This document shows positions 1,686-25,267 of a DNA stretch of 64,000 nucleotides, in pieces. The stretch is from Bradyrhizobium sp. ORS 285 (lineage in GTDB: Bacteria > Pseudomonadota > Alphaproteobacteria > Rhizobiales > Xanthobacteraceae). How positions within the stretch are numbered: the stretch's first letter is position 1; each line of letters opens with the position of its first letter. The notes under the pieces were generated by a model that saw only the letters and a program-made list of their open reading frames with translations, was not told the DNA's origin and ran no database searches. The stretch lies in assembly GCF_900176205.1 (NCBI RefSeq), contig NZ_LT859959.1, forward strand, positions 2,377,001 through 2,441,000. Direction: 5' to 3'. The position numbers and the translations under genes were made by a program.

Positions 1686-2939
1686 ATGCACATGCGACGC
1701 GTGGGGTTCGCCGTGGTCACGGCGCTTTTGCTGTCCGGTACGGCTGCGTTCGCTCAGGAGAAGATCAAGGTCGGAGTCACGGCAACGCTCGAGGGCACCT
1801 ATACGGTGCTCGGGGAGGACGGCATGCGCGGCCATGTCACCGCGCTGAACGTGCTCGGCAAGAAGGTCGGCGACAAGGAGCTGGAGTTCGTCGTTGCCTC
1901 GACCGATGCCACGCCTGACTCGGCGGTGCGCGCCGTGCGCAAGCTGATCGAGCAGGACAAGGTGCAGATCCTGCTGTCGCCGCTGTCGGGCGACGAAGGC
2001 ATCGCGGTGAAGAACTTCGCCAAGACTCATCCGGAACTGACTTTCGTCAACGCCGCGTCCGGCGCGCAGGAGACGACCTATGTCGATCCGGCGCCGAACT
2101 TCTTCCGCTTCAACATGGACGGCGCGCAGTGGCAGGTCGGCCTAGGCAAATATGCCTATGAGACCAAGGGCTATCGCAAGATCGCGACGGTCGGCGAGGA
2201 CTACTCCTTCATCTATACCCAGGTGTTCGGCCTGGCGCTCGAGTTCTGCGGCCTCGGCGGCAAGATCTCGAGCCGGCAGTGGGTCCCGCTCGGCACCAAG
2301 GATTTTGCATCGGTCATCGCCGCGCTGCCCGACGATGTCGATGCCATCTATCTCGGTCTCGGCGGCGCCGACGCGGTCAACTTCCTCAATCAGTACCAGC
2401 AGGCCGGCGGCAAGGCTCACCTGATGGGCGGCTCGATCATGATCGACCAGACCATCCTGTCGTCCAAGGGCAACGCCAAGAACGCGCTGATCGGCACCAT
2501 CGCAGCCTCGGGCCAGGCCGATACCTGGGAGGATCCGCGCTGGCAGAAGTTCGTCAAGGCCTATCAGGACTCGTTCCCGCCGGAGAAGCGCTTCCCGAGC
2601 CCATCGCTGCTGGCCACCAATTATTACGGCTCGACCATGGCGCTCATTCTCGCGCTGCGGGAGGTCAATGGCGATCTCTCCGATAACCAGTCGAAGCTGA
2701 AGGCGGCGCTGGCCAAGATTGAGATCGACGCGCCCAACGGCAAGATCAAGCTCGACTCCAACCGCCAAGCGATCGGCACCAACTTCGTCACCGAGGTGGT
2801 CGATGATGGCAAGGGCGCGCTGTTCAGCAAGGTGGTGAAGGTGATCCCCGACGTCAACCAGACACTGGGTTATGACGCGGCCACCTTTGCCAAGATCGGG
2901 CTGCCAAGCCGGACCGTGCCTGAATGTAAGAAGTACTGA
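1686..2939 (+). CDS. Branched-chain amino acid-type ABC substrate-binding protein
   Basis: A periplasmic binding protein of 417 residues in the LivJ/AmiC-like (Peripla_BP_6) class. The signal peptide runs to about residue 24 and ends in TAAFA. The mature part begins with KIKVGVTATLEGTYTVLG, the usual first strand of this class. The ATG at 1686 has GGGAGGAG just upstream; a second ATG two codons later is possible. The next genes are an AraC regulator and a LIV-type permease/ATPase set, so this is very probably the ligand-binding subunit of that importer. A strong hairpin follows the stop. The ligand is unknown; the class also binds amides, aromatic acids and urea. Confidence 0.85.
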   Translation: MHMRRVGFAVVTALLLSGTAAFAQEKIKVGVTATLEGTYTVLGEDGMRGHVTALNVLGKKVGDKELEFVVASTDATPDSAVRAVRKLIEQDKVQILLSPLSGDEGIAVKNFAKTHPELTFVNAASGAQETTYVDPAPNFFRFNMDGAQWQVGLGKYAYETKGYRKIATVGEDYSFIYTQVFGLALEFCGLGGKISSRQWVPLGTKDFASVIAALPDDVDAIYLGLGGADAVNFLNQYQQAGGKAHLMGGSIMIDQTILSSKGNAKNALIGTIAASGQADTWEDPRWQKFVKAYQDSFPPEKRFPSPSLLATNYYGSTMALILALREVNGDLSDNQSKLKAALAKIEIDAPNGKIKLDSNRQAIGTNFVTEVVDDGKGALFSKVVKVIPDVNQTLGYDAATFAKIGLPSRTVPECKKY

Positions 2940-2959
2940 CCAATTGCGGTCAGCAACTC

Positions 2960-2988
2960 ACGCGGCCGGACGCTCGCTCCGGCCGCGT
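2960..2988 (+). terminator. Terminator after LIV-type binding protein
   Basis: A perfect 11-bp stem (2960-2970 with 2978-2988) around a 7-base loop starts 20 bases after the stop codon, followed by a pyrimidine-rich stretch. It would separate high expression of the binding protein from the downstream regulator. Confidence 0.7.
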
Positions 2989-3064
2989 CGTCGCGTCTCT
3001 TGCTTTCTGTGCAGCAATGCCCGACGCTGACAAATAATCAAAAAGTCATATCGGTGGGGAAGTG

Positions 3065-3886
3065 ATGAGTAGGGCGCTTGCCGTCTTTCATGCACGCTTC
3101 GGTCGCGCGACGGTCTATCAGCTCAATCGGCCGTTCAATGTGCATGCCCATCGCGAGGGGCATCTGATCTTTCACGTCGGCGGAACGCCGGCCAACATCG
3201 ATGTCTGCGATCAGCGCCATGTCATCGGCGAGGACTCGATCGTCGCGGTCAATCCATGGGAACCACATAATTTCCTGCCGAACGATATCGACAACGGCGC
3301 GATCTTCTTCGTGCTCTACGTCAATGCCGAATGGTTCGCACCGCCAGCCATGCGCGAGGGGCTGAAATTCGGCAGGACCTGCTTCCGCCGCACCGCCGCG
3401 CTCGACCGCTGCATTCGTCGCACCGCAGCGCTGGTCTGTGGCGCGCCGTCGCTCGGCTGCCTCGATGGCGAGCTGCGCCAGCTGATCGAGAGCTGCTACG
3501 AGGAGAGCTGGCGTGTGTCCGAATTGACGCCGGAGCGGCCAAGCACCGAGGTGACCGATTTCCGTGTCCGCAAGTGCATCAAGCTGATGTCGGACAGCCC
3601 CTGTGCCGAGATCGAGCTCGATCATATCGCGCGAGAGTCGGGACTGTCACGGCCGCATTTCTATCGTCTGTTCCGCAGCCAGACCGGCGTGACGCCGAAC
3701 CTCTATCTGAACACACTCCTGATGGAGCGGGCGCTGGATGCGGTCGTCGCAACGGAGTCGCCCATTGCCGACATCGGCTTCGATCTCGGCTTCTCGTCGC
3801 AGAGCGGCTTCACCCGCTTCTTTGCCGGCAATGTCGGCATGGCGCCGACCGATTATCGCCGCGCTGCAAAAGTGCTGCGGTCCTGA
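3065..3886 (+). CDS. AraC-family transcriptional regulator
   Basis: A regulator of 273 residues. The N-terminal part (about 1-130) looks like a cupin-type sensor (HREGHLIFHVGG, VNPWEPHNF). The C-terminal 100 residues carry the two helix-turn-helix units of AraC/XylS proteins, including IARESGLSRPHFYRLFRSQTGVT and DIGFDLGFSSQSGFTRFF in order. I prefer the ATG at 3065 over the adjacent GTG at 3062 because GGTGGGGA sits too close to the GTG. The gene stands between the LIV-type binding protein and the permease genes, so it probably controls the large operon to its right. The inducer is presumably the transported compound or a breakdown product. Confidence 0.85.
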   Translation: MSRALAVFHARFGRATVYQLNRPFNVHAHREGHLIFHVGGTPANIDVCDQRHVIGEDSIVAVNPWEPHNFLPNDIDNGAIFFVLYVNAEWFAPPAMREGLKFGRTCFRRTAALDRCIRRTAALVCGAPSLGCLDGELRQLIESCYEESWRVSELTPERPSTEVTDFRVRKCIKLMSDSPCAEIELDHIARESGLSRPHFYRLFRSQTGVTPNLYLNTLLMERALDAVVATESPIADIGFDLGFSSQSGFTRFFAGNVGMAPTDYRRAAKVLRS

Positions 3887-4000
3887 CGTGCTGCTACGCA
3901 TCGCGCGAAAAGAGACTGTCGATCAAACAGGCGTTCTCGTCTGCCGTTAGTCTTTGGCGGAACGTGATCCGGCAAAGGATCCGACGAGGGAGGACGAGCG

Positions 4001-4090
4001 ATGGCCGGCGTCACCGGCGATCTTCGGCTGCACGCGCGACGCCGTTGTGAAGACGGCGCCGGTTTCCTCGACGTGAGGGGGCGCCGATGA
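4001..4090 (+). CDS. Possible 29-residue leader peptide before LIV permease
   Basis: A small frame begins with ATG at 4001, eight bases after an excellent GGGAGGA ribosome-binding site, and ends with a TGA that overlaps the permease ATG (ATGA at 4087-4090). The peptide starts MAGVTGDLRLHARR, is rich in Arg and Gly and resembles nothing I recognise. Good start signals plus exact coupling to the next gene suggest a translated leader or a translational-coupling device. Chance cannot be excluded, since the permease also has its own GAGGGGG site. Confidence 0.35.
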   Translation: MAGVTGDLRLHARRRCEDGAGFLDVRGRR

Positions 4091-5097
4091 GCGGCTTCAT
4101 CGAGCGCCGGCCGATCTGGTCCCTCGTCATTCTGATTGCCTTCGCGTGTCTTGCTTGGCTGATCATCGCGGTGTGGCCGCCGGGGCTGGAAGAGGCGATC
4201 GGCCGCAAGAAGGTGTTCCTGAGCGCCGTGTTCAACGGGATCACGCTGGGTGGACTCTACTTTCTGGTCGCGAGCGGATTCACCCTGATCTTCGGCCTGA
4301 TGCGCAACGTCAACCTTGCGCACGGCTCGCTGTATCTGTTCGGCGGCTATGTCGGCTACGGCGTCTCGGCCGCGACCGGCTCGTGGATCCTGGCCTTCAT
4401 TGCGGCCTTCATCGTCGTCGCTGTCGTCGGCGTGCTGCTTCAGCTGCTCGTGTTTCGCCGCATGGAGGGGCAGGACCTGCGGCAGACCATGGTGACGATC
4501 GGGCTGTCGATCGTGTTCGCTGATCTCATGCTGTGGGCGTTCGGCGGCGACTTCTATCAGATCCAGACGCCGGCCTGGCTGATCGGACCGGTCCAGCTGC
4601 CGCTGATGACGGCAATGAAGTCGTCCGGCGAAGCGGTGTTCCTGCAATATCCGCTGGTGCGGCTCGTGATCTTCTGCGGCTCGGTGGTGATCGGCGTGCT
4701 GATGTGGCTCGCGCTGAACCGCACGCGGGTCGGCATGATCGTCCGCGCCGGCGTCGACGACCGCGAGATCCTCGCCGCGACCGGCGTGCAGATCCAGCTC
4801 GTCTTCGTCCTGGTGTTCGCGCTCGGCGCGGGATTGGCCGGCATCGCCGGCGTGGTCGGCGGGACGTTCCAATCGATCTCGCCGGGAGAGGATACACGGT
4901 TCCTTCTTGCGTCGCTGGTCGTGGTCATCGTCGGCGGTATGGGATCGATCCCGGGCGCGGCGCTCGGCGCTGTCATCATCGGGCTCGCCGAGCAGCTCGG
5001 CTCGGTCTACATCCCGACCTATGCGATCGTCGTGACGTTCCTGATCATGGTCCTGGTGCTCGCGCTGCGGCCCCAGGGCCTTCTGGCGAGGCGATGA
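4087..5097 (+). CDS. Branched-chain amino acid-type ABC permease (LivH-like)
   Basis: An inner-membrane permease of 336 residues in the BPD_transp_2 family. The LivH hallmark GITLGGLYFLVASGFTLIFG appears near residue 55, then NLAHGSLYLFGGY, the central hydrophobic helices, and the cytoplasmic loop around EILAATGV that contacts the ATPase. About 30 extra residues with one hydrophobic helix precede the conserved core, so it is slightly longer than the usual 290-300 residues. ATG at 4087 follows GAGGGGG. It is the first large gene of the operon and is followed one base later by the LivM-like permease, with which it should form the heterodimeric channel. Confidence 0.9.
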   Translation: MSGFIERRPIWSLVILIAFACLAWLIIAVWPPGLEEAIGRKKVFLSAVFNGITLGGLYFLVASGFTLIFGLMRNVNLAHGSLYLFGGYVGYGVSAATGSWILAFIAAFIVVAVVGVLLQLLVFRRMEGQDLRQTMVTIGLSIVFADLMLWAFGGDFYQIQTPAWLIGPVQLPLMTAMKSSGEAVFLQYPLVRLVIFCGSVVIGVLMWLALNRTRVGMIVRAGVDDREILAATGVQIQLVFVLVFALGAGLAGIAGVVGGTFQSISPGEDTRFLLASLVVVIVGGMGSIPGAALGAVIIGLAEQLGSVYIPTYAIVVTFLIMVLVLALRPQGLLARR

Positions 5098-5098
5098 G

Positions 5099-6190
5099 AT
5101 GTCGCTGATCCAGGAAGCGCGGGCGAGGGAGGGCATGGTCGGACCACGCGGTGCCGTGGGCCAGCCGGCTACGTGGTCCGTCACCGAGCATCCATGGGCC
5201 TGGGCGGTGGCGGCCTTGCTGCTGATCATGCCGCTCATCGCAAACGGCTTCTTCCTGATCGAGATCTTCGGCACGACCCTGATTCTCGGCACGATTGCGC
5301 TGAGCCTGATGTTCCTCGCCGGCTATGGTGGCATGGTCAGCCTGATGCAGCTCACCATCGCTGGCTTTGCCGGCTACATGGTCGCGGTCTTCGGCGTCAG
5401 CGGCAACGCCACTATCAGCCTGGGCTGGCCGTGGTGGCTGGCGACGCCGATGGCGCTGGTGCTCGCGGTGCTGTTCGGCACGCTCGGCGGCGCGCTCGCC
5501 GTGCGGACCGAAGGCATCTACACCATCATGATCACGCTCGCGATCGGCGCGGCGTTCTACTATTTCACCAACCAGAACTGGGGGATCTTCAACGGCCATA
5601 CCGGCATCAACACGATCGCGACGCCGCATTTTCTTGGCATCAACTGGCGCAGCGATATCGCGTTCTATTATCTGATCCTGGTGGTCGCCGCGCTGTGTTA
5701 CTTCGCCGTACTGTATCTGTCCCGCGCGCCGTTCGGTCTGGCACTGCAGGGCGTGCGCGACAATCCCCCGCGCATGGCCGCGCTCGGCTTCAACGTCAAT
5801 GCACATCGGATTGCGGCCTACGCGTTTGCCGCGCTGATCGCCGGCCTCGGCGGGGTGCTGCAGGTCTGGAACTATCGGCAGATCTCACCGGGCTCGGTCG
5901 CCGTCGAACGCTGCATCGACATTCTGATCGTCGCGGTCGTCGGCGGCGTGACCCGGCCGGTCGGCGCCTATATCGGCGCCTTCATCTTTGTCATCCTGCG
6001 CACCTTCGCGCTCGACTTCCTGGTCAAGGTCGGCCTCGACGGCAACCGCTTCCGTTTGCTGATCGGCCTCGGCTTTCTCGCCATCGTGTTTTTCTCGTCC
6101 GACGGCGTCGTCGGCCTCTACGAGCGCTGGCGCAAGCGCGGCCAAGCCAAGGAGACGCGGCCCCGACCGGGAGGGCACGGCCATGGATAG
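5099..6190 (+). CDS. Branched-chain amino acid-type ABC permease (LivM-like)
   Basis: An inner-membrane permease of 363 residues, partner of the LivH-like protein. It has about nine hydrophobic segments and typical LivM motifs: LSLMFLAGYGGMVSLMQ, the TEGIYTIMITLA segment, and the ATPase-contact loop RAPFGLALQGVRDNPPRMAALGF at about residues 205-225. The C-terminus is a short basic tail. The start ATG overlaps the end of the upstream gene's context with a one-base gap, and the stop overlaps the next gene by eight bases, so the permeases and ATPase are translationally coupled. Confidence 0.9.
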   Translation: MSLIQEARAREGMVGPRGAVGQPATWSVTEHPWAWAVAALLLIMPLIANGFFLIEIFGTTLILGTIALSLMFLAGYGGMVSLMQLTIAGFAGYMVAVFGVSGNATISLGWPWWLATPMALVLAVLFGTLGGALAVRTEGIYTIMITLAIGAAFYYFTNQNWGIFNGHTGINTIATPHFLGINWRSDIAFYYLILVVAALCYFAVLYLSRAPFGLALQGVRDNPPRMAALGFNVNAHRIAAYAFAALIAGLGGVLQVWNYRQISPGSVAVERCIDILIVAVVGGVTRPVGAYIGAFIFVILRTFALDFLVKVGLDGNRFRLLIGLGFLAIVFFSSDGVVGLYERWRKRGQAKETRPRPGGHGHG

Positions 6191-6965
6191 GGTGGCGGAC
6201 CGGCTCTCGGCCCTCGGCTCGACGGCGGCGCTCGAATTGCGCGGCGTGACCCGGATGTTCGGCGCGTTGGCTGCGCTGACGGACATCACCATTACGGTCC
6301 GGCCCGGCGAGCGCCGCGCGGTGCTGGGCTCCAATGGCGCCGGCAAGACGACGCTGTTCAACTGCGTCACCGGCGACTTCCTGCCGACCTCCGGGACGAT
6401 CCGCTTCTTCGGCGAAGACGTCACCGCGTTTCCGCCGTATGAGCGCATCCGCCGCGGCTTGCGCCGGACGTACCAGATCTCGGCGCTGTTCCTTGGGCTC
6501 ACGGTCCGCGACAACGTCTATCTGGCCTGCCGTGGCGTGTCGCGGGCGCGCTTCTCGATGCTGCGTCCGAGCGTCAGCGACGCGCTGATGCAGTCGACCG
6601 AGCGGCTGATCGAGGCTGTGCATCTGACGTCGGTGCGCGATCAACTGGTGTCGGAGCTCGCCCATGGCCAACAGCGCCAGCTCGAGATCGCGCTGGCGCT
6701 GGCCGGCGCCCCGCGCTTCATCCTGTTCGATGAGCCGGCGGCTGGCCTGTCGCCGACCGAGCGGCGCGAACTGGTGGAGATCCTGACCGCGCTGCCGCCG
6801 CATATCGGCTACATCATCATCGAGCACGACATGGATGTCGCGCTGCGCGTCGTCGAGAGCGTCACGATGATGCACAACGGCCGCATCTTCAAGGAGGGCG
6901 CGCCGCACGAGATCGAGTCCGATCCGGAGGTGCAGGAGCTGTATCTGGGAGGCGGTCATGAATGA
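6183..6965 (+). CDS. Branched-chain amino acid-type ABC ATPase (LivG-like)
   Basis: A 260-residue ABC ATPase. Walker A (GSNGAGKTT) is near residue 50, the Q-loop region reads [10 protein letters not shown], the signature is degenerate (ELAHGQQRQ in place of LSGGQ), Walker B is [11 protein letters not shown] and the switch histidine lies in IIEHDMD. The degenerate signature with AHGQQR is typical of LivG proteins. It overlaps the permease upstream by eight bases and the fused ATPase downstream by eight bases. Together with the next gene it would energise import by the LivH/LivM-like pair. Confidence 0.9.
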
Positions 6966-9177
6966 TCGCAGCCGCTCCGCGCCCGCGCTCGAGGTCCGCG
7001 GCCTCGACGTCTACTATGGCCATTCGCATGCGCTGCAGGGCGTCGACCTCCGGCTCGACAGCGGCGTGTTCTCGCTGGTCGGCCGCAACGGCATGGGCAA
7101 GACCACGCTGTGCAAGGCGATCATGGGTCTGCTGCGGCCATCCGGCGGATCGGTGCGGCTGCGCGGCGAGGATATCACCGGGCTCAATCCGGCGCGCATC
7201 GCGCGGCTCGGCCTCGGCTACGTGCCGCAGGGGCGGCGTCTCTGGCGCTCGCTCAGCGTCGATGAGCATCTGCGGCTCGCGGCCGGGCTGCGCCGCGGCG
7301 CCTGGACGGTCGAGCGGGTCTACGAGACGTTTCCGCGGCTGGCCGAGCGACGCAACAATGGCGGCGGGCAGCTCTCCGGCGGCGAGCAGCAGATGCTGGC
7401 GATCTCGCGCGCGCTGCTGACCAATCCGCAGCTCCTGATCATGGACGAGCCCACCGAGGGGCTTGCGCCGGTCATCGTCGCCCAGGTCGAGGAGATGCTC
7501 ATCCGGCTCGGCCAGGACGGTGACATCGCGGTGCTGGTGATCGAGCAGAATATCGGCGTCGCTACCGCGATCTCGCCGCGCGTCGCGATCATGGTCAACG
7601 GCCGGATCAACCGCATCATCGACTCTGCGCGGCTTGCGGCTGATCGCGAACTGCAGCAGCGCCTGCTCGGCGTCGGCCAGCATGCGGGCGACGAGACCGA
7701 TCTCGGCACCGAGCAGGCGAGGGAGGAGCCGGTCGCTCGTGCGGCAATGCCCGCGCCGCCAAAGGCCGCTCCGGTCAAGGTCTACGTCTCCAATCCCGTG
7801 CTGCCGACGCGCTGGTCGCAGCCGGTGCCGATCGCGCAGATTGAGGCCAAGGCGCGCACCGTCTCGACCAGCGTCACGCGGCTCGATGAGGCGGCGCGCG
7901 TCGGACGCGAGCGCGTTGCACCGGGCTCGTCCGGTCCGCCTGCGGTGATCGTGGCCGGTACGCTCGACACCAAGGGCGAGGAGCTGCGGTTCATCCACGA
8001 CATCATTGCCGGCCACGGCCTCCGCACGCGGCTTGTCGATGTCTCCACCAGCGGCAAGCATGCGAGCTGCGACGTCTCGGCCCAGGAGGTCGCGCTCAAT
8101 CATCCGCGCGGCGGCTCGGCCGTGTTCGGCTCCGACCGCGGGCAATCCGTGGCGGCAATGGCCGACGCCTTTGCTCGCTGGCTGCGGCGGCAGGACAATG
8201 TCGCCGGGATCATCTCGGCCGGCGGCTCCGGCGGTACGTCGCTCGTGGCCCCCGGCATGCGCGAGCTGCCGGTCGGTGTGCCCAAGCTGATCGTCTCGAC
8301 AGTCGCCTCGGGAGACGTCGGCGCCTATGTCGGTCCGGCCGATATCGCGATGATGTACTCGGTCGCCGACGTGCAGGGGCTGAACTCGATCTCGCGTGCC
8401 GTGCTGAGCAACGGCGCGCATGCGTTGGCCGGAATGGTCGCGGCGCGGCAGCAGCAGTCGGCCGCCACTGATCGCGCCAAGCCGCAGCGCGCCGCGCTCG
8501 GGATCACCATGTTCGGCGTCACCACGCCGGCGGTGCAGAAGATCACGGCGGAGCTGCGCGACGATTACGAATGCCTGGTGTTTCACGCCACCGGCGTCGG
8601 CGGCCGCTCGATGGAGAAGCTCGTGGACTCCGGGATGCTCGCCGGTGTGATCGATCTCACCACCACCGAGGTCTGCGATCTGCTGATGGGCGGCGTGTTT
8701 CCCGCCACCGAGGATCGCTTCGGCGCCATCATCCGTTCGCGCGTACCCTATGTCGGCTCTGTCGGTGCATTGGACATGGTGAATTTCGGCGCGCCCGACA
8801 CAATCCCCGAACGCTATCGCGGCCGCAAGTTTCACGTCCACAATCCGCAGGTCACGTTGATGCGCACCACGCCTGCAGAGAATGCGGAGATGGGGCGCTG
8901 GATCGGCGAGCGGCTCAATCGCATGGATGGCCCGGTCAGGTTCTTCCTGCCCGAGAAAGGCGTCTCCGCGCTCGACGCGCAGGGGCAGCCGTTCTTCGAT
9001 CGCGAGGCGGACGAGGCGCTGTTCCGTAGCCTCGAGCAGACGGTGCGGCAGACGTCGACGCGGCGGATCATTCGCGTGCCGCATCACATCAACGACAATG
9101 AGTTCGTCGCCACGATCGTCGCCGCCGTCAGGCCGATGCTCGGGCGGCTGCCGGCGCGGCGCAGACAGGCGAGGTGA
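6958..9177 (+). CDS. LivF-like ABC ATPase fused to Tm-1/UPF0261 domain
   Basis: A 739-residue fusion. Residues 1-235 are a complete LivF-type ATPase: Walker [10 protein letters not shown] (about 42), signature LSGGEQQM (about 140), Walker [12 protein letters not shown], and VIEQN where most ABC proteins have a histidine, as usual in LivF. A Pro/Ala-rich linker (about 236-325) leads into a Tm-1-like ATP-binding domain (UPF0261) from about residue 327, opening [18 protein letters not shown] and including [26 protein letters not shown] (written here as consecutive blocks [12 protein letters not shown] and [11 protein letters not shown]). The frame is continuous, with no sign of a sequencing frameshift. 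Tm-1 is the tomato protein that inhibits tobamovirus replication; bacterial homologues have no established role. The next gene encodes a protein like the other half of Tm-1. Confidence 0.88.
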
Positions 9178-9182
9178 TGGGC

Positions 9183-13436: not shown

Positions 13437-13440
13437 CGCC

Positions 13441-16780: not shown

Positions 16781-17803
16781 ATGACCCGATACCGCGGCCG
16801 CGGCATGGCGGCAATCAACTATCCCATCGGCATGAATCTCGGTGGCGATCCGAGCCAGGCGCTGGTGCATTCCAATCCTAGCGGCAAGTTCACGGTGGCG
16901 CTGTCGTCGATCGATCTCGGGCAAGGCATGAAGTCGGTGACGCGGCAGATCTGCGCCGAGACGCTCGGCGTGCCCGTCGAGGACGTCTATGTCGACACGG
17001 CGGACTCCGACACGGGCCCGCATTGCATGGGTTCGTTCGCCTCGCGCGGCACGCATCGCGTCGGCAATGCCGTGATGGCCGCTGCCAAGGAGGCGCGCGG
17101 CGTCATGATGGAGGCGGCGGCAGAGGAACTCGAGGTCAACGCCAGCGACCTCGAGACCGATGGCCGCGGCAACATCCACGTCAGGGGCGCGCCGCATCGC
17201 TCGATCTCGGTGAAGGATGTCGCCATCGCCGCGCAGTTCCGCCAGGGCAAGACCATCTCCGGCCGCGGCATTTTCCTGGTGCCGCTGTCGGACGTCGATC
17301 CCGAGACCGGCGAGATGTCGCCGGCGACCTGCTACGCGCACGCGTGTCTGGTTGCGGAGGTCGACGTCGATGACGAGACCGGCGAGGTCGGCGTGATCAG
17401 GATGGACAGTGCTTATGAGCTCGGGCGAGCGCTCAACCCACGTCTTGTCGAGCAGCAGTTGGTCGGTGGCGCTTGGATGGGGATGAGCCACGCGCTGTAT
17501 GAGACCACCGAGCCGTATTATCCCGATCCCAGGCAGGGCCCGCGCGACTTCGTCGAATATCTGATGCCAGGACCCGGCGACATCTGTCCGCACGACATCG
17601 CGGTGCTGGAGCGGCCCGCGCCCGACGGCCCGTTCGGCGGCAAGGGACCGGGCGAGATGTGCGCCAACCCGGTGCTTCCGGCAATCGCGAATGCGATCTT
17701 CAATGCGGTCGGCGTGCGCATCGATGAGCTGCCGATCACGCCGGAGAAGGTGCTGCGCGCGATCAAGGCGCAGGGCGGCGCGCGGCCGCAAACGCGGCGG
17801 TGA
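16781..17803 (+). CDS. Molybdenum hydroxylase Mo subunit, C-terminal half
   Basis: A 340-residue protein equal to the second Mo-binding domain of the family. It begins MTRYRGRGMAAINYP, matching the point where single-chain subunits cross into this domain, then SSIDLGQGMKSVTRQICAETLG, and has the catalytic glutamate loop FGGKGPGEMCANPVLPAIANA near residue 280-300. ATG 16781 lies one base after the upstream TGA. Nicotinate dehydrogenase of Eubacterium barkeri (NdhL/NdhM) is a known precedent for such a split. With the three preceding genes it should form a complete hydroxylase. Confidence 0.88.
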   Translation: MTRYRGRGMAAINYPIGMNLGGDPSQALVHSNPSGKFTVALSSIDLGQGMKSVTRQICAETLGVPVEDVYVDTADSDTGPHCMGSFASRGTHRVGNAVMAAAKEARGVMMEAAAEELEVNASDLETDGRGNIHVRGAPHRSISVKDVAIAAQFRQGKTISGRGIFLVPLSDVDPETGEMSPATCYAHACLVAEVDVDDETGEVGVIRMDSAYELGRALNPRLVEQQLVGGAWMGMSHALYETTEPYYPDPRQGPRDFVEYLMPGPGDICPHDIAVLERPAPDGPFGGKGPGEMCANPVLPAIANAIFNAVGVRIDELPITPEKVLRAIKAQGGARPQTRR

Positions 17804-17809: not shown

Positions 17810-18691
17810 ATGGTGGTCCGAAGCAACATCGTCGGCATCGACTCGCCGCAGGCGCTGGAAAAGGCGCTGCGCGCGGCCTATTACCTCGCCGATGACGGGC
17901 TCTCCACCGCCGCCTATCTCGCGCTCGCGCTCGGCAAGCCGCTGCTGCTCGAAGGCGCGCCCGGCGTCGGCAAGACCGAGGCTGCGAAAGCGATCGCCGC
18001 AGTGCTCGGCCGCAAGATGATCCGGCTGCAATGCTACGAGGGCATCGACGCGGCAGCGGCGCTGTACGAGTGGAACTACCCGCGCCAGATGCTCGCGATC
18101 CGCCAGGCCGGCGAGGAGAGCATCGACATTTACGGCGAGAGCTTCCTGATCGAGCGGCCGATGCTGGCCTGCCTGCGCGCGCCGGACTCCACTGTTCTCC
18201 TGATCGACGAGATCGATCGCGCCGACCAGGAGTTCGAGGCCTTCCTGCTCGAATTCCTCTCCGACTTCCAGATCTCGATTCCCGAGCGCGGCACGGTACG
18301 CGCGGCCGAGCGGCCGATCGTGGTGCTGACCTCGAACCGGACCCGTGACCTGCATGAAGCGCTGCGTCGCCGCTGTGTCTATCATTGGATCGATTATCCC
18401 GATGCGGAACGCGAAGCGCGGATCGTGATGATGCGCGCCTCCAGCGTCGCTGAAGGAACGGCGCGGGCGGTGGTGTCGGCGGTGGCGAAGCTTAGGCGCG
18501 AGCCTTTGAGCAAGGCGCCCGGGATCGCCGAGGCCGTCGATTGGGCCGAGGCGGCGACCTTGCTGAACCGGACCGGCGCGCGCTGGCCTGATGCATTCAA
18601 GCGATCCATCGGTGTCGCGCTGAAGGATGAGGAGGATCTGTCCTTCGTCGCGCCGCGGCTGGACGCGCTGCTAGCGGAGGCGACGACATGA
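17810..18691 (+). CDS. MoxR-type AAA+ ATPase (CoxD-like)
   Basis: A 293-residue AAA+ ATPase. Walker A is GAPGVGKTEAAKA (about 46-58), Walker B is VLLIDEIDRADQEFE (about 127-141) and sensor 1 lies in VVLTSNRTRDLHEALRRRC. These match the MoxR/CoxD group. In carboxydotrophs CoxD helps insert the sulfido ligand or Cu at the Mo centre together with the VWA protein CoxE; here the next gene is CoxE-like, so a maturation role for the adjacent hydroxylase is likely. Its stop overlaps the next ATG (ATGA). Confidence 0.9.
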   Translation: MVVRSNIVGIDSPQALEKALRAAYYLADDGLSTAAYLALALGKPLLLEGAPGVGKTEAAKAIAAVLGRKMIRLQCYEGIDAAAALYEWNYPRQMLAIRQAGEESIDIYGESFLIERPMLACLRAPDSTVLLIDEIDRADQEFEAFLLEFLSDFQISIPERGTVRAAERPIVVLTSNRTRDLHEALRRRCVYHWIDYPDAEREARIVMMRASSVAEGTARAVVSAVAKLRREPLSKAPGIAEAVDWAEAATLLNRTGARWPDAFKRSIGVALKDEEDLSFVAPRLDALLAEATT

Positions 18692-19806
18692 GCGAGGTCC
18701 GCTTGCCACGCGCCACCGGGATCTTCGTGACCTTCGCCGCCCTGCTGCGGCGGAACGGCTTTGCCGTTGCACCCGAGCAGACTACGGCCTTCCTCGCCGC
18801 GATCGAACTGCTCGGGCCGGCCAGTCTCGACGATATCAGGCGTGCGGGAGCCGCGACCCTGGCGCCGCCGCCGGAGCGGCTCTGCACCTATCATCTGCTG
18901 TTCGACATTCATTTCGGCGTGAGCGAGGCGACGGCCCTCAGCGAGAGCGACCAGCAGGATGACGTCATCCGGCTGCAGGAGGAGGGCGACGACGGCGTCG
19001 ATCCCGACAGCACGCAGGAGCAGAACGAGTCCGGGCTCGCGGCCACGCAAGCCGAGGCGCTGGTCGCGCGCCGTCTTGCGGCCACGAGCGGCGGCAATGC
19101 CTTGCAGCGTCTCGCACGGCAGGCGCGTGCAAAGCTGCCGAAGCGGCGCGGCCACCGCCGAATGCGCGCGCGGCGCGGCAGCTTCGTCGATTTGCGTCGA
19201 ACCTTGCGCGAGAGTGTGCGCCGCGACGGCGAAGTGCTGTCGCTGCGGCGGCTGAAGCGGCGGCCGCGGCTGCGCCGTCTGTTGTTGTTGATCGACGTCT
19301 CCGGCTCGATGAAGGCGCGCACCGAGGACAACATGCGGCTGGCCCACGTGCTGGTGCAAGCCATCCCGCACGTTGAGGTGTTCACGCTCGGCACGCGGCT
19401 GACTCGCATCACACGCCCGCTGCGCCTGAAGCGGCGCGAGCAGGCGCTGCTCGCGGCCTCTCATCTGGTCAGCGATTGGGACGGCGGCACGCGGATCGGC
19501 GAGGCGCTGCAGGCCTTTCTCGCGGTGCCGCGCTTCTCGACTTACGCCCGTGGTGCAGCGGTCCTGGTGATCTCCGATGGACTGGAGCGCGGCGATCATC
19601 AGGTGCTCCGCGAGGCCGTGTGGAAGCTGTCGCTGCGTGCCTGGCGCGTGAGCTGGCTGACGCCGCTGGCGACCGGGCCCGGCTTCAAGCCGCAGACGGA
19701 GGCGCTGCAGGCGATCGCCCCATTCGTCGACGATATCGTTCCCGGCGGCTCCGACGACGTCATCGTCTCGCATGTGCTGTCGCTGGCGCAGAGGAGGGCG
19801 GCATGA
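18688..19806 (+). CDS. VWA-domain protein (CoxE-like)
   Basis: A 372-residue protein with an Arg-rich middle and a C-terminal von Willebrand A domain (about 195-365). The MIDAS motif is DVSGSMKARTEDN, with later metal-site pieces WDGGTRIGEAL and ISDGLERGDH. This is the CoxE group, partner of MoxR/CoxD ATPases in Mo-hydroxylase maturation. It overlaps both neighbours by four bases (ATGA junctions), so it is co-translated with the ATPase and with the amidohydrolase that follows. Confidence 0.9.
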   Translation: MSEVRLPRATGIFVTFAALLRRNGFAVAPEQTTAFLAAIELLGPASLDDIRRAGAATLAPPPERLCTYHLLFDIHFGVSEATALSESDQQDDVIRLQEEGDDGVDPDSTQEQNESGLAATQAEALVARRLAATSGGNALQRLARQARAKLPKRRGHRRMRARRGSFVDLRRTLRESVRRDGEVLSLRRLKRRPRLRRLLLLIDVSGSMKARTEDNMRLAHVLVQAIPHVEVFTLGTRLTRITRPLRLKRREQALLAASHLVSDWDGGTRIGEALQAFLAVPRFSTYARGAAVLVISDGLERGDHQVLREAVWKLSLRAWRVSWLTPLATGPGFKPQTEALQAIAPFVDDIVPGGSDDVIVSHVLSLAQRRAA

Positions 19807-20690
19807 GCGGATATGTAGATGCGCATCATCATATCTGGCGCCAGGCCGATCTGCCTTGGCTCGTCGGCCCGATGCAGCCGCGCATCTTTGGCCCGTACGA
19901 GCCGATCCGACGCGACTATCCGATCGAGGAATACATCGATGATATCGCCGGCAGCGGCGTGACCCAGTCGGTCTACGTCCAGACCAACTGGGCCAAGGAC
20001 GGTTTCGAGAACGAGGCCGCGTGGGTGCAGCGAACTGCCGATCAGCACGGCTTTCCCCACGCCATCGTCGCCTATGCCGATCTCGCCGTCGAAGATGCCC
20101 GACCGCAATTCGATCGGCTCGCGCGCTATCCGCTGCTGCGCGGCGTCCGGATGCAGCTGCACTGGCACGAGAACCCGCTGTATCGCTTCGCTGCGTCTCC
20201 GGATCTCTGCAGCCACCCGACGATCCGCGCCAACATCGCGCGGCTGGCCGACTATGGCTGGTCGTTCGACCTGCAGATGTTCGCCGGTCAAATGGCCGGT
20301 GCCGCCGCGCTGGCCGCGAGCTGTCCGTCTGTGACCTTCATCCTGCAGCACGCCGGCATGCTGGAAGACCTGTCTCCGGAGGGACGCGAGCAATGGCGCG
20401 CGGGCATGCAGCGGCTCGCGGCCTGCCGCAACGTCGTCAGCAAGCTCTCGGGCCTCGGCACCTTCATACGCCGCAACGATCCAGCGCATGTCGCCGATAT
20501 CGTGCGCGAGACGATCGAGATGTTCGGTTCCGACCGCTGCCTGTTCGGCTCGAACTTTCCGATCGAAAAACTCTGGACCGACTATCGCGCGCTGGTCGCG
20601 AGCTACGAGGTAGCTATCAGCCATCTCGACGACCACGCGCGTGCGCTGGTGATGGGAGAGACCGCGCGGCGGGTCTACCGGCTGGGATGA
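19803..20690 (+). CDS. Amidohydrolase-2 family TIM-barrel hydrolase
   Basis: A 295-residue metal-dependent hydrolase of the amidohydrolase_2 group, which includes lactonases such as 4-sulfomuconolactone hydrolase and L-fuconolactonase-like proteins. The metal-binding HxH is in DAHHHIWRQADLPWLVGPM at the N-terminus; VTFILQHAGM carries a core histidine, and GSNFPIEKLWTDY carries the end of the family pattern. Sequence style (DAHHHIW, YPLLRGVRMQLHW) favours the lactonase-like branch. It starts inside the stop of the CoxE-like gene. In context it may open a lactone made after hydroxylation. Confidence 0.85.
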   Translation: MSGYVDAHHHIWRQADLPWLVGPMQPRIFGPYEPIRRDYPIEEYIDDIAGSGVTQSVYVQTNWAKDGFENEAAWVQRTADQHGFPHAIVAYADLAVEDARPQFDRLARYPLLRGVRMQLHWHENPLYRFAASPDLCSHPTIRANIARLADYGWSFDLQMFAGQMAGAAALAASCPSVTFILQHAGMLEDLSPEGREQWRAGMQRLAACRNVVSKLSGLGTFIRRNDPAHVADIVRETIEMFGSDRCLFGSNFPIEKLWTDYRALVASYEVAISHLDDHARALVMGETARRVYRLG

Positions 20691-20729: not shown

Positions 20730-21578
20730 ATGGCGCTGGAAATCAAGGTTCTCGACTATGGTGATATCGAGCTGGAATCGAGCTTCCTCGTGCTCGGGCG
20801 CGACTGCGGCCGTACCCGCCGGGTGCTCACGCTCGGATTCCTGATCCTCGGCGGCCCGTATCCGGTCGTGGTCGACACCGGCTATCGCTCCAACCAGATC
20901 ATGGAGACGCTGGGCATGCGCGGGCTGCAGTATCATGAGAACATGATCGAGAACCAGCTCGCGCGGCACGGAGTGCGCATGGGCGACGTCCGCTACGTCT
21001 GCCACACCCATCTGCACATCGATCATGCCGGCAAGGACGATCTGTTCCCGATGAACACGACGGTGGTGCTGAACCGGCGCGAGCTGGAATATTCGGTGTC
21101 CGGATTGATGCATCCGCAATACCCGGCGCCCGACATCAAGCACCTGATCGACCGCCTGCACACCAAGAGCGCGCTGCGCTTTCTGGATCTTGAGCTCACC
21201 GGCGCGGTCGAGCTGATGCCGGGGGTGTATTGCGAGGCGGCCAACGCCCATACCGAGGGCTCGATGAACATCCACGTCCACACCGCCGACGGCATCGCCA
21301 CGATCTGCGGCGACGTCATCTACGACTTCAACGACCAGATCGTGACGCCGTTCAACGAGATCCAGGACGCCGAGCCGCGTACGACCGGCAACCACGGCAC
21401 CAGCAAGCGCGCCGAGAAGGCGGCGATCAAGAAGCTGCTGTCGAGCTCGCGCTATTTGCTGCCGATTCACGATCGCCCTGCCAAGATCGAGGGTGGCATG
21501 GTGGTAGGGCGGCTGCACGACCAGGTGCCGGGCCCGCTGGTGCAGTCGCTGCCGCAGCGGCACTGGTTTCCGGCGTGA
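20730..21578 (+). CDS. Metallo-beta-lactamase-fold hydrolase, AHL-lactonase-like
   Basis: A 282-residue MBL-fold hydrolase. The HxHxDH zinc motif is HTHLHIDHAGKDD (about residues 92-104). A third histidine lies in EAANAHTEGSMNIHV and the metal-bridging Asp in ICGDVIYDF. The set resembles N-acyl-homoserine-lactone lactonases (AiiA/AttM group), but those signatures also occur in other lactonases. Being inside a catabolic operon argues for a pathway lactone and not for quorum quenching. AGGGAA precedes ATG 20730. Confidence 0.85.
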   Translation: MALEIKVLDYGDIELESSFLVLGRDCGRTRRVLTLGFLILGGPYPVVVDTGYRSNQIMETLGMRGLQYHENMIENQLARHGVRMGDVRYVCHTHLHIDHAGKDDLFPMNTTVVLNRRELEYSVSGLMHPQYPAPDIKHLIDRLHTKSALRFLDLELTGAVELMPGVYCEAANAHTEGSMNIHVHTADGIATICGDVIYDFNDQIVTPFNEIQDAEPRTTGNHGTSKRAEKAAIKKLLSSSRYLLPIHDRPAKIEGGMVVGRLHDQVPGPLVQSLPQRHWFPA

Positions 21579-21587: not shown

Positions 21588-23171
21588 ATGACCCACGTTA
21601 CCTTGCGCCCTGAGTTCGAGACCCTGATCGACCCCTACGCGCCGGTGGCGCAGGTCGCGACCGGCTTCGACTTCACGGAGGGGCCGATCTGGCATCCGGC
21701 CGAGCAGTTCCTGCTGTTCTCCGACATGCCTGCCGACGTCCGCCGCCGCTGGGACGCCAAGCGCGGCGTCGTCGAGATGCGGCGGCCGTCCAACAAATGC
21801 AACGGCATGACCTACGATGCCGAGCTCAACCTGATCGTCTGCGAGCACGCGACGTCGTCGCTGGTACGCGAGCGGCCCGACGGGCGGCGGGAGATCCTGG
21901 CGTCGCATTATCAGAACCAGGAGCTGAACAGTCCGAACGACGTCTGTGTGCATTCCAGCGGCGCGATCTATTTCTCCGACCCCTGGTACGGCCGCATGCC
22001 GGTCTTTGGCTTGGAGCGGCCGCGTCAGCTTGGCTTCCAGGGCGTCTACCGCGTGCCGCTGGGCGGCGGCGCGCCGCTTCTGCTGGTGGAGCGCAATCTG
22101 TTCGATCAGCCGAACGGGCTGTGCTTCTCGCCGGACGAGACGCTGCTCTATGTCAACGACACGGTGCAGGCGCTGATCCGGGTATTCGATGTCGGCAGCG
22201 ATGGCAGCCTGTCGAACGGCCGCGTTTTCGCGAGCGGCATCCGCTCGGAGCTGGAGCCCGGCGTGCCCGACGGCATGAAATGCGACCAACGCGGCCATGT
22301 CTGGGTCACCGCGCCCGGCGGCGTCTGGGTCTATGCGCCCACCGGCGAACTTCTGGGCAAGGTGCGCGTGCCGGAGCTGGTCGCCAATCTCGCCTGGGGC
22401 GGCGCTGATTTCCGCACGCTCTATCTGACCGCCACGCATTCTGTCTATGCCATCGCGACCAAGGTCGGCCCGCGCCATGAACCTTACATGAGCGCGCGGC
22501 GGACGGCTGGACCCACATCGGCCGCGTCTTCTTCGACCGCGCCCGCGGCGCCGCAACTCGCCGGCGACATGCAGCTCGATCCGCGGCGCTGCGCGATGAT
22601 CATCCAGGACCTGCAGAACGACGTCATCATGGATGGCGGCGCGTTCGCCGATTCCGGCGCGCCCGGGCATGCCAAGCAGCAGCGCGTGGTCGACAACGTG
22701 CGCCGGCTGGCCGAGGTCGCCCGCGCGCGCGGCGTCGTCATCATCTTCGTCTGGTTCGTCGTCGAGCCCGGCGCGCCCGGCGTGACCTTGAACGCGCCGC
22801 TGTTCGAAGGGCTGGTCGACAGCAGGGCGATGGTGCGCGGCAGTTGGGGCGCAGCGCCCGTCGCCGGCCTGGAGCCGCGCAGCGGGGACTTCGTCGTCGA
22901 GAAGATGCGGATGAGCGCGTGGGAGGGCACCAGGCTCGAGACCATCCTGAAGGCGACGGGGCGCGACGTCATCATCAATACGGGCGCGTGGACCAACATG
23001 TCCGTGGAGCACACCGCGCGCACCGGCGCCGACAAGGGCTACTTCATGGTGGTGCCGGAGGACTGCTGCTCGACGATGAACGCGGACTGGCACAATGCCG
23101 CGATCAACTTCGCCCTTCAGAACGTGTCCGTCGTCACCAATGCCGATGCGGTCATCAAGGCGCTGGGGTAG
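21588..23171 (+). CDS. Fusion: SMP-30/gluconolactonase plus isochorismatase-like domain
   Basis: A 527-residue two-domain hydrolase. Residues 1-300 form an SMP-30/gluconolactonase six-bladed propeller: metal ligands fit EGPIWHPAEQF, LNSPNDVCVHSSGAIYFSD and the VNDTVQ region. A Ser/Ala/Thr-rich linker (about 301-320) leads to an isochorismatase-fold domain (about 325-520). There the Asp (IIQDLQNDVIM) and Lys (VEKMRMSAW) of the catalytic triad are present, but the position of the nucleophilic Cys reads Ser (WTNMSVEHTAR). This suggests an altered or lost amidase activity, or an isochorismatase-like reaction that does not need Cys. Both halves are in one frame without interruption. Confidence 0.88.
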   Translation: MTHVTLRPEFETLIDPYAPVAQVATGFDFTEGPIWHPAEQFLLFSDMPADVRRRWDAKRGVVEMRRPSNKCNGMTYDAELNLIVCEHATSSLVRERPDGRREILASHYQNQELNSPNDVCVHSSGAIYFSDPWYGRMPVFGLERPRQLGFQGVYRVPLGGGAPLLLVERNLFDQPNGLCFSPDETLLYVNDTVQALIRVFDVGSDGSLSNGRVFASGIRSELEPGVPDGMKCDQRGHVWVTAPGGVWVYAPTGELLGKVRVPELVANLAWGGADFRTLYLTATHSVYAIATKVGPRHEPYMSARRTAGPTSAASSSTAPAAPQLAGDMQLDPRRCAMIIQDLQNDVIMDGGAFADSGAPGHAKQQRVVDNVRRLAEVARARGVVIIFVWFVVEPGAPGVTLNAPLFEGLVDSRAMVRGSWGAAPVAGLEPRSGDFVVEKMRMSAWEGTRLETILKATGRDVIINTGAWTNMSVEHTARTGADKGYFMVVPEDCCSTMNADWHNAAINFALQNVSVVTNADAVIKALG

Positions 23172-23174
23172 GGC

Positions 23175-23801
23175 ATGCCCAAGCTGTTTCATCTCGTTGC
23201 CTCGCCGCGCGCGGACTCCGGGTCGAGCGCTGGCGCGCGCGTCTTCCTCGGCCGCTTCAGGCAGGTGCGGCCGGGCTTCGACATCGACGAGATGAATCTC
23301 TGGCGCGAGAATCTGCCGGAGTTCGACGGCGAGATCCTGCAGGCGAAGTATGCGCGCATGGGCGGGCGCGCCTTCACCGAGGGCCAGCGCGCAGCATTCG
23401 CCATGGCAGAGCGCATGGCGGTGCGGCTCGATCTCGCTGACCGCGTCGTGATCTCGACGCCGATGTGGAATTTCGGCATCCCCTACAAGCTCAAGCACTG
23501 GCTCGACATCATCAACCAGCCCGGGCTCACCTTCCGCTTCGATCCCGTCAGCGGCTATCTCCCGCTGTTGAAGGACCGCCCGACGCTGGTGATCCTTTCG
23601 AGCGGCGGCGATTTCTCGACCGGCATGAGCCGCGGCCGGACGGATCTGGCGACGCCCTATCTGCGCGAGGCGCTGCGCTTCATGGGTCTGCGCGACGTCA
23701 CCTTCGTCGCGATCGGGCCGACCAGCGGGCCGGCGGAGCACACCGGCGCGGCGCGCGAGCGCGCCCACCGCCGTCTCCTGGACATGGCCGCGCGCTTCTG
23801 A
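23175..23801 (+). CDS. Flavodoxin-fold NAD(P)H oxidoreductase (azoreductase-like)
   Basis: A 208-residue flavodoxin-fold protein of the NQO1/AzoR group. It opens KLFHLVASPRADSGSS, the FMN phosphate loop, and contains the FMN isoalloxazine-contact text TPMWNFGIPYKLKHWLD and LSSGGDFS. Such enzymes carry out two-electron reduction of quinones or azo compounds using NAD(P)H. The start is three bases after the preceding stop. In this operon it could reduce a quinone-type intermediate, or reoxidise reductant from the hydroxylase. Confidence 0.85.
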   Translation: MPKLFHLVASPRADSGSSAGARVFLGRFRQVRPGFDIDEMNLWRENLPEFDGEILQAKYARMGGRAFTEGQRAAFAMAERMAVRLDLADRVVISTPMWNFGIPYKLKHWLDIINQPGLTFRFDPVSGYLPLLKDRPTLVILSSGGDFSTGMSRGRTDLATPYLREALRFMGLRDVTFVAIGPTSGPAEHTGAARERAHRRLLDMAARF

Positions 23802-24019
23802 GCGGACGCTCGCATCCCAGCTCATGATAGCGCCTATGCGCGAGAGAGCCTTGCGCCGCGGGCGAGGTGCGGGGCATCTTGACGCGACGTGAGATGAGTC
23901 CGGTGTGCACGGTCCGGCCGAGGCGCGGCCCGGCTCGAGCTGCGGGATGGGCAGGGCGGCGGGCTCGCTCTGGACTGCACGTATGAAGGGACCTCTGGTC
24001 CTGCGCAAGGAAACTGCCG

Positions 24020-25267
24020 ATGCCGACGATCCTGTTCGAGAATGCCGCTTTGCTCGATCCGCTGCAGCCCGACTTGAGCGAGGGCATGCATGTGCTGGTC
24101 GAGGACGGCCTGATCAAGGAGGTCTCGGACAGGCCGCTGCAGGGGAGCGCGGAGCGGAGGATCGATCTCAAGGGCAAGACGCTGATGCCCGGCCTGATCG
24201 ATTTGCATGTGCATGCGATCGCGGTCGAGCTCAATCTGGCGCAGCAAGTGCAGATGCCGAACGTGCTGGTCACCCTGCGCTCGGCGCTGATCCTGCGTGG
24301 CATGCTGCGGCGGGGCTTCACCACCGTGCGCGATGCCGGCGGCGCCGGCTATGCGCTCAAGCAGGCGGTCGACACCGGGATCACCGAGGGCCCGCGGCTG
24401 TTCGTCTCCGGCCGCGCACTGAGCCAGACCGGCGGCCATGGCGACATGCGCCCGCGCACCGATTTCCTCTCCGACAACGCGCCGTGTCCGTGCTGCGTCC
24501 GGGTCGGCGCGCTGGCGCGCGTCGCCGATGGCGTCGATGGCGTGCGCAAGGCGGTGCGTGAGGAGCTGCAGATGGGCGCCGACCAGATCAAGATCATGGC
24601 CTCGGGCGGGGTGGCGTCGCCGACCGATCCGGTCGGCGCGTTCGGCTATTCCGAGGACGAGATCCGCGCCATCGTCGCCGAGGCGAGGGGACGCGGCACC
24701 TACGTGCTGGCGCATGCCTACACGGCCGAGGCGATCGCGCGCGCGGTGCGCTGCGGCGTTCGTACCATCGAGCACGGCAACCTCGTCGACCTGCCGACCG
24801 CGCGGCTGATGGCCGAGCACGGCGTCTACGTGATCCCGACGCTCGTCACCTACGAGGCGCTGGCCAATGAGGGCGCGCAATACGGCCTGCCGCCGGAGAG
24901 CGTCGCCAAGATCGCCGACGTGCGCGACGCGGGCTTGCGCTCGCTGGAGATCTATCGCGAAGCCGGCGTCAAGATGGGCTATGGCAGCGACCTCCTCGGT
25001 CCGTCGCAGCGCCTGCAGAGCGACGAATTCCGCATCCGCGCCGAGGTCCTCGGTACGCGCGAGGCGATCGCCAGCGCCACGGTGATTGGTGCCGAAGTGC
25101 TCGGCATGGAAGGCAAGCTCGGCCGCATCCAGCCCGGCGCGTTCGCCGATCTCCTCGTCGTCGACGGCAATCCGCTGCGCGACATCTCCTGCCTGCTCGG
25201 CCAGGGCGATCGCATTCCCCTGGTGATGAAGGCCGGCCAGGTCCACAGCGACAGGCTGAATACCTGA
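24020..25267 (+). CDS. Amidohydrolase (imidazolonepropionase/prolidase-like)
   Basis: A 415-residue amidohydrolase of subgroup I. The metal site is complete: HxH in GLIDLHVHAIAVE (about 54-66), the bridging Lys in QIKIMASGGVASP, His in LAHAYTAEA, His in RTIEHGNL and Asp in GYGSDLLGP. A small composite-sheet domain formed from the N- and C-terminal ends is visible. Related proteins hydrolyse N-acyl or dipeptide amides. A 218-bp gap precedes it, so it may have its own promoter, but strand and theme tie it to the operon. A hairpin follows its stop. Confidence 0.87.
   Translation: MPTILFENAALLDPLQPDLSEGMHVLVEDGLIKEVSDRPLQGSAERRIDLKGKTLMPGLIDLHVHAIAVELNLAQQVQMPNVLVTLRSALILRGMLRRGFTTVRDAGGAGYALKQAVDTGITEGPRLFVSGRALSQTGGHGDMRPRTDFLSDNAPCPCCVRVGALARVADGVDGVRKAVREELQMGADQIKIMASGGVASPTDPVGAFGYSEDEIRAIVAEARGRGTYVLAHAYTAEAIARAVRCGVRTIEHGNLVDLPTARLMAEHGVYVIPTLVTYEALANEGAQYGLPPESVAKIADVRDAGLRSLEIYREAGVKMGYGSDLLGPSQRLQSDEFRIRAEVLGTREAIASATVIGAEVLGMEGKLGRIQPGAFADLLVVDGNPLRDISCLLGQGDRIPLVMKAGQVHSDRLNT

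Follow-up and report, generated by a model that had tools for sequence, protein, structure and literature searches.

A conserved candidate uptake-and-breakdown locus of Bradyrhizobium with a LIV-type importer, both halves of Tm-1, a long flotillin, and a split molybdenum hydroxylase

We analyzed a window of 64,000 nucleotides (the whole stretch of DNA under study; positions 2,377,001 to 2,441,000 of contig NZ_LT859959.1) from Bradyrhizobium sp. ORS 285, whose 7.8-Mb genome is contained in a single contig. Based on predicted domains and gene order, we conclude that positions 1686 to 23801 form one conserved locus of twenty genes, apparently of an uptake-and-breakdown type (Table 1). It encodes a LIV-type ATP-binding cassette (ABC) importer, an AraC-type regulator, counterparts of both halves of the plant protein Tm-1 (the second half here called Tm1C), a long flotillin, two SRPBCC proteins (SRP1 and SRP2), and a molybdenum hydroxylase whose molybdenum subunit is divided between two genes (L1 and L2). 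CoxD- and CoxE-like proteins, several hydrolases, and a quinone-reductase-like protein complete the set. With the start codons as chosen, neighboring genes from the LivH-type permease to the reductase overlap by up to 38 bases or stand up to 75 bases apart. A preliminary description of this DNA had named the importer, the regulator, the flotillin, the two SRPBCC proteins, the CoxDE-assisted hydroxylase, the hydrolases, and the reductase, and Pfam supports each of these; it had overlooked the UPF0261 fusion, the PF09370 gene, and the isochorismatase-type domain. Promoter and terminator scans of the locus gave results near chance level, and Rfam returned no matches at the gathering threshold in positions 1 to 30000. 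The locus is nowhere described in the literature searched, which covered few subscription papers; its parts are of known kinds, and their assembly is new.

The gene order is kept across many genomes. Using the gene for the SGL-isochorismatase protein as bait (its own count is no evidence), we collected the best 80 of 295 confirmed matches, nearly all named Bradyrhizobium, and scored a gene as in place when it lay within 1.5 kb of its expected position. Each gene from SRP1 to the reductase was in place in all loci where it could be tested (66/66 to 80/80), a conservation of order far beyond chance. Tm1C was matched at 1e-20 in 119 of 146 genomes of the genus, by a close ortholog (71% or more) in 116 and by a distant one (36 to 51%) in three. 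L2 was found in 112 Bradyrhizobium genomes; Tm1C lies 7,553 to 8,001 bases upstream of it on the same strand in 106, and the two genes are on different contigs in the other six. Four genomes of the genus carry a Tm1C ortholog without L2. We also fetched 20 loci from the genus that span the range of similarity, of which 16 have the operon (including L050, whose contig stops in CoxE; L042, with broken matches; and L047, without the Amidohydro_2 gene) and four are paralogous and lack it. In L042, the LivF-Tm1N, L2, and CoxE matches each fall into two pieces, so that this copy looks damaged, by decay or by an assembly error. These comparisons bear out the earlier proposal of a single, co-inherited locus, and the possibility that its genes are never found together elsewhere fails clearly.

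The edges of the unit are also defined by comparison. On the right, the reductase was in place in 79/79 loci, but just one of the 77 loci testable for the amidohydrolase gene at 24020 to 25267 (plus strand) had it in place; the unit therefore ends near 23801, not at 25267 as previously drawn, and the second of the two amidohydrolases formerly assigned to it is a neighbor, not a member. This neighboring Amidohydro_1 protein is prolidase-like, with a strong match to the PDB amidohydrolase 3mkv (670 bits) and 275 bits against the Xaa-Pro dipeptidase model, under its cutoff of 500. On the left, the genes for the binding protein, AraC, and LivH occur together in 18/18 upstream stretches, and the next gene out (56 to 1252, minus strand) is present in 1/18, that of the nearest relative.

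Table 1. Genes of the locus, with positions in the window
Feature	Position	Strand	Basis
LIV-type periplasmic binding protein (Peripla_BP_6)	1686..2939	+	Pfam; ahead of AraC-LivH in 18/18 genus stretches
AraC-type regulator	3062..3886	+	Pfam
LivH-type permease	4087..5097	+	Pfam
LivM-type permease	5099..6190	+	Pfam
LivG-type ATPase	6183..6965	+	Pfam
LivF-type ATPase (residues ~1-235) fused to UPF0261, the Tm-1 N-half (329-726)	6958..9177	+	Pfam, PDB match
PF09370 TIM-barrel protein (Tm1C), the Tm-1 C-half	9174..10028	+	Pfam, PDB match
Long flotillin: N-terminal membrane helix, Band_7, 11/44-residue-repeat coil, Flot domain	10104..12992	+	Pfam, hydropathy
SRPBCC protein 1 (SRP1; Polyketide_cyc2)	12999..13436	+	Pfam
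SRPBCC protein 2 (SRP2), start codon uncertain	13399..13884	+	Pfam
Molybdenum hydroxylase flavin adenine dinucleotide (FAD) subunit	13900..14721	+	Pfam
Molybdenum hydroxylase 2Fe-2S subunit	14725..15201	+	Pfam
L1, hammerhead and MoCoBD_1 half of the molybdenum subunit; GGGFGGKV motif, proline-rich tail	15214..16779	+	Pfam, motif
L2, MoCoBD_2 half of the molybdenum subunit; catalytic Gly-Glu	16781..17803	+	Pfam, motif
CoxD-like AAA ATPase	17810..18691	+	Pfam
CoxE-like VWA protein	18688..19806	+	Pfam
Amidohydro_2 protein, closest to L-fuconolactonase; start approximate	19797..20690	+	Pfam, PDB match
Metallo-beta-lactamase-fold (MBL) protein, lactonase-like; HLHIDH	20730..21578	+	Pfam, motif
SGL (gluconolactonase-like) propeller and isochorismatase-type domain, Ser for catalytic Cys	21588..23171	+	Pfam, alignment
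Flavodoxin_2 (quinone-reductase-like) protein, final gene of the unit	23175..23801	+	Pfam

The UPF0261 part of the LivF fusion has its best PDB match in Tm-1, the tomato virus-resistance protein (3wry, 341 bits), and the sole PDB match of Tm1C, the only PF09370 match in this genome, is 2p10 (Mll9387). Both halves of Tm-1 (3wry, 3wrw), UPF0261 and PF09370, are thus strongly matched here. The halves are reported to be joined in one protein in the plant (PMC5028733), whereas here they are two genes, with the N-half carried on an ABC ATPase. The same paper reports that the halves co-occur and co-evolve, that plants acquired both of them from bacteria, and that the full-length protein probably serves a function other than resistance (PMC5028733). 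The LivF and UPF0261 parts are both present in 113 of the best 120 homologs listed, and the source name of one relative (P0022) already reads "modular," so the fusion is not unseen; we found no interpretation of it in the literature searched. Fusion to the importer ATPase places the Tm-1 N-half at the point of entry. The PDB relatives of the periplasmic binding protein gave no clue to the ligand. A second transporter-enzyme fusion lies elsewhere in the window (44460 to 46580, plus strand), combining a LIV-type permease (residues 68 to 327) with a strictosidine-synthase-like/SGL propeller, next to another permease (42321 to 43301) and a protein in which two stretches match ABC ATPases (47071 to 49173).

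The molybdenum subunit is split into L1 and L2 in 107/107 loci, including those of one actinomycete and one haloarchaeon as well as Pseudomonadota, which rules out a sequencing error as the source of the split. The Gly-Glu of L2 is kept in 108/108. As in aerobic carbon monoxide (CO) dehydrogenase (cox) clusters, genes for FAD, 2Fe-2S, and molybdenum subunits are followed by CoxD/CoxE-like genes, with an SRPBCC-type protein nearby; unlike them, this locus has a split molybdenum subunit, attached hydrolases, and no CoxL-type scores. L1 scored 162.4 and 160.4 bits against CO dehydrogenase large-subunit models with cutoffs of 950 and 991, a weak test given that L1 is half the model length, and the CSFR sequence, which forms a loop in CoxL, was looked for in L1 and not found. 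On these grounds, we rejected identity with CO dehydrogenase. No XdhC/CoxF-like domain appeared among the locus genes scanned with Pfam. In CO dehydrogenase, sulfuration of the molybdenum site reportedly requires CoxD (PMC4240915). Together, these features suggest a mature hydroxylase, probably for a hydrophobic ring or an aldehyde-like substrate. Another molybdenum hydroxylase subunit is encoded further along the window (35096 to 37333, plus strand); its best MoCoBD_2 stretch (28 to 207) precedes MoCoBD_1 (335 to 567), an unusual order.

The hydrolases resemble lactonases of several folds. The Amidohydro_2 protein scored 93 bits against the L-fuconolactonase model (cutoff, 400) and has 4dlf as its PDB relative. 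Family models and the PDB both place the MBL protein, whose HLHIDH motif is kept in 104/104, closest to N-acyl homoserine lactone (AHL) and other lactonases, at 46.4 bits against the AiiA (AHL lactonase) model (cutoff, 375). The SGL part is closest to gluconolactonase (PDB 3e5z). Fold families are therefore those of L-fuconolactonase-type Amidohydro_2 proteins, AHL-type lactonases, and gluconolactonase-type SGL proteins, with scores far below theirs. The isochorismatase-type domain shares its fold, Asp (104/105), and Lys (102/105, both by motif search) with RutB-type amidases but has Ser for the catalytic Cys in 105/105, the position being taken from an alignment to Escherichia coli RutB. Amidohydro_2 is missing from its place and MBL kept in L047, L085, and L088, and MBL is missing and Amidohydro_2 kept in L105 and L206, a pattern that fits partly redundant ring opening by the two proteins.

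The flotillin has 962 residues and an N-terminal membrane helix, Band_7 domain, coil, and Flot domain, and the coil repeats with periods of 11 and, most prominently, 44 residues; the 44-residue repeat accounts for its unusual length. We measured periodicity in 28 relatives, 22 from loci arranged as here (class 1) and six from a sister class (class 2, described below). Forty-four was the top period in 22/22 class 1 proteins (865 to 1,319 residues from the first possible start) and in three of the six class 2 proteins (562 to 850 residues); 11 or 22 was on top in the other three, and all class 2 periods were weaker than most class 1 values. A crude test on the open frame, not the curated protein, of the genome's only other Flot protein found no such period. 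A single-sequence structure model predicted, with low confidence (mean pLDDT, 55.8; pTM, 0.23), a helix at residues ~202 to 852 with three breaks. Human FLOT1/2 cages share this architecture of N-terminal membrane helix, Band_7 and Flot domains, and long helical coil; their barrel comprises 186 residues and is 22 nm high (PMC11260169), compared with ~550 to 650 residues in 44-residue repeats here. By analogy, this flotillin may form a taller basket than the human one. Related domes enclose membrane proteins, FtsH in the case of HflK/C and UT-B and AQP1 in that of stomatin (PMC12407830).

Class 2 has the order LivH-LivM-binding protein-LivG-LivF.Tm1N-Tm1C-flotillin-SRP1-SRP2 and lacks the molybdenum enzyme; in 7/7 loci (L062, L068, L071, L072, L074, L079, and L189), a single frame encodes its second SRPBCC domain together with a zinc-type dehydrogenase. 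These comprise six loci from an order-level sample and one from Variovorax; the fusion was recognized by Pfam in three and by tblastn with the Variovorax part in the rest. In L055, L081, L097, L098, L187, and L195, an SRPBCC gene also stands by Tm1C, and the fetched stretch shows no molybdenum enzyme. One open frame beside Tm1C in L098 (region 7253 to 7766) has two SRPBCC matches. Because class 2 replaces the molybdenum enzyme with an SRPBCC-fused dehydrogenase, the oxidoreductase appears to be exchangeable, while the importer-Tm1-flotillin-SRPBCC platform stays. This apparent tie between SRPBCC proteins and an oxidoreductase that can change is the clearest mechanistic clue.

Beyond the genus, Tm1C was matched at 1e-20 in 96/297 genomes of the order-level sample. 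We fetched 32 of these places for diversity, not at random (one, L100, is a paralog in a Bradyrhizobium genome); 11 have the molybdenum-type operon, three are cut by contig ends yet consistent with it, and six belong to class 2. L2 is rare in wider samples (23/248 family, 8/385 class, and 16/398 phylum genomes). Eight family loci picked by L2 are each consistent with the operon over the length of sequence available. Of eleven loci that were picked by L2 in the class and phylum samples, five have the whole arrangement, three have a compact, Rhizobiaceae-like form (L208 to L210; AraC-SRPBCC-FAD-FeS-L1-L2-CoxD-CoxE-Amidohydro_2), and three, from two genomes, have molybdenum subunits only. L208, the sole compact locus scanned for this feature, adjoins a sugar-type importer. 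Plasmids yielded five strong L2 matches, the next record being at 36%. In Shinella (82%) and Yoonia (75%), the plasmid has the whole operon with some genes missing; in Sinorhizobium BG8 (73%), Nonomuraea (65%), and the haloarchaeon Salinigranum rubrum (62%), it has the molybdenum module without Tm-1. In Thermomicrobium roseum, LIV genes, a Tm-1 pair, a FAD subunit, and a molybdenum hydroxylase subunit lie within ~16 kb, so the Tm-1 pair and the hydroxylase meet outside Pseudomonadota too. Alongside, this plasmid locus (L192) has genes for a PPDK_N protein, a phosphoenolpyruvate-utilizer mobile-domain protein, a cyclase, and a fumarylacetoacetate-hydrolase-like protein, which may hold clues to Tm-1 chemistry.

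Taking together the gene content, order, co-inheritance, fusions, and motifs, we tentatively favor an import-coupled catabolic operon on a flotillin platform, in which ring oxidation would be followed by opening of a lactone or lactam; we give this reading a substantial chance, if somewhat short of an even one. The importer would take in a small organic solute, on which the ATP-binding Tm-1 N-half and the separate C-half TIM barrel would act at the inner face of the membrane, the physical link between importer and N-half being shown by the gene fusion. SRPBCC carriers may then hold a hydrophobic or reactive product and pass it to the exchangeable oxidoreductase, here the nicotinate-dehydrogenase-like molybdenum hydroxylase with CoxD and CoxE and in the sister class the SRPBCC-fused zinc-type dehydrogenase. 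The oxidized ring, most likely a lactone or lactam, would be opened by the Amidohydro_2, MBL, and SGL hydrolases, and the isochorismatase-type domain would cleave a further bond. The long flotillin could gather importer and enzymes into one membrane platform, with AraC presumably controlling expression.

Several observations weigh against this reading. Twelve of the 32 order-level Tm1C loci are arranged otherwise. Some Tm-1 pairs adjoin sugar importers with cupin and Gfo/Idh/MocA genes, and others, in Vibrio and Gluconobacter, have no importer in sight; because pairs adjoin other importers or none, the job of Tm-1 seems to be general and not tied to the present pathway. The molybdenum module occurs without Tm-1, such LIV genes, or flotillin in L102, L103, L106, and L208 to L210, so the locus could combine two modules from separate pathways. 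Scores of the hydrolases are all far under family cutoffs and so suggest only a reaction class. The redundancy proposed for Amidohydro_2 and MBL rests on five loci, and in one of these (L085) a distant Amidohydro_2 relative (34%) lies further along.

Among the alternatives, a real contender, although on balance unlikely, is breakdown of an N-heterocycle (nicotinate- or purine-like), with the molybdenum enzyme hydroxylating next to nitrogen and the amidohydrolases opening the lactam; the preliminary description had favored a heterocyclic or aromatic solute. The best PDB relative of L1 is nicotinate dehydrogenase of Eubacterium barkeri (3hrd, 226.9 bits; next, 173.9), which likewise has separate large and medium molybdenum subunits beside FAD and 2Fe-2S subunits. 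The present enzyme differs in its gene surroundings, in the adjoining CoxD and CoxE, and in having Val, not Leu, after the GGGFGGK motif. Val was read at this position in 106/107 loci, the remaining one being unread by the motif search. In PDB sequences, the residue is Leu in 3hrd, Glu in 2ckj (xanthine dehydrogenase/oxidase), and Val in 2e1q, presumably an engineered Glu-to-Val form. At this place, Glu is typical of enzymes that act on purines and Val of those with aldehyde-oxidase-like substrates; we therefore rejected a purine substrate. Lactonase-type relatives dominate among the hydrolases, and to our knowledge no other known nicotinate-pathway gene is recognizable in the unit, which also counts against an N-heterocycle. 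The three lactonase-type hydrolases seem to point to lactone chemistry as much as the likeness to 3hrd points to an N-heterocycle.

It is rather unlikely that the Tm-1 pair acts as a sensor or gate, binding solute and ATP and switching the importer instead of converting the solute. PF09370 is the N-terminal, sensor-like domain of sigma-54-type regulators encoded next to Tm-1 pairs (L101, 3782 to 5869; L187, 5865 to 7646), so that a role in binding and not in catalysis is conceivable, and a Tm-1 half fused to an ABC ATPase could gate transport. However, the pairs of Vibrio and Gluconobacter that adjoin no importer gene suit an enzyme better, and AraC already regulates the locus.

We give little credence to the idea that the cargo of the SRPBCC proteins is quinone instead of substrate and that they couple the molybdenum enzyme to the respiratory chain as CoxG would. 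Their genes adjoin that for the FAD subunit of a CoxDE-type hydroxylase, and CoxG, of a Bet v 1-like fold too, is reported to bind quinone in CO dehydrogenase systems (PMC13240472). However, SRP1 and SRP2 match only PF10604 (Polyketide_cyc2; E, 0.001), with no CoxG-family match in Pfam, and a hydropathy scan of both found no hydrophobic segment. CoxG has a membrane anchor, and identity with it was rejected on both grounds. SRPBCC proteins also stay with Tm-1 where the molybdenum enzyme is absent, or are fused to the zinc-type dehydrogenase. A structure model of SRP1 from 23 close sequences was of poor quality (mean pLDDT, 41).

It is similarly improbable that two unrelated modules, LIV-Tm1-flotillin-SRPBCC and molybdenum hydroxylase-hydrolases, share a promoter and serve separate pathways. 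Each is found alone, the first in class 2 loci and the second in the six loci without Tm-1 listed above, but order and spacing are strict in many genomes, SRPBCC proteins occur in both modules, and the SRPBCC-fused dehydrogenase replaces the molybdenum enzyme at the same place. Breakdown of a signal lactone, such as an AHL or a plant lactone, is very improbable: the distant AHL-lactonase likeness of MBL, the hydrophobic carriers, and the plant-associated hosts would suit it, but the scores are far under cutoffs, MBL is missing in L105 and L206, and the molybdenum module is present in a haloarchaeon.

The import-coupled reading can be taken further, to a scheme that we regard as speculative and improbable. 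The 44-residue-repeat flotillin would form an outsized basket on the membrane around the LIV importer, a compartment without a shell, in which the Tm-1 halves would process the entering solute and SRPBCC proteins would deliver it to a swappable oxidoreductase, shielding the cytosol. Ancestral Tm-1 would then have served ATP-dependent, import-coupled processing of a small molecule, and plants would later have turned it on a virus.

Beyond the locus and its neighboring amidohydrolase, the minus strand at 25920 to 30046 encodes an ABC ATPase, an NMT1-like protein, and a Crp-type regulator, resembling a taurine- or nitrate-type uptake set (Pfam).

The presence of the Tm-1 halves in a defined, conserved bacterial locus opens their native chemistry to knockout and metabolomics in Bradyrhizobium. 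Gene order links a flotillin with a single importer and a single enzyme set, and the SRPBCC-oxidoreductase fusion of the sister class provides a handle on the role of such carriers.

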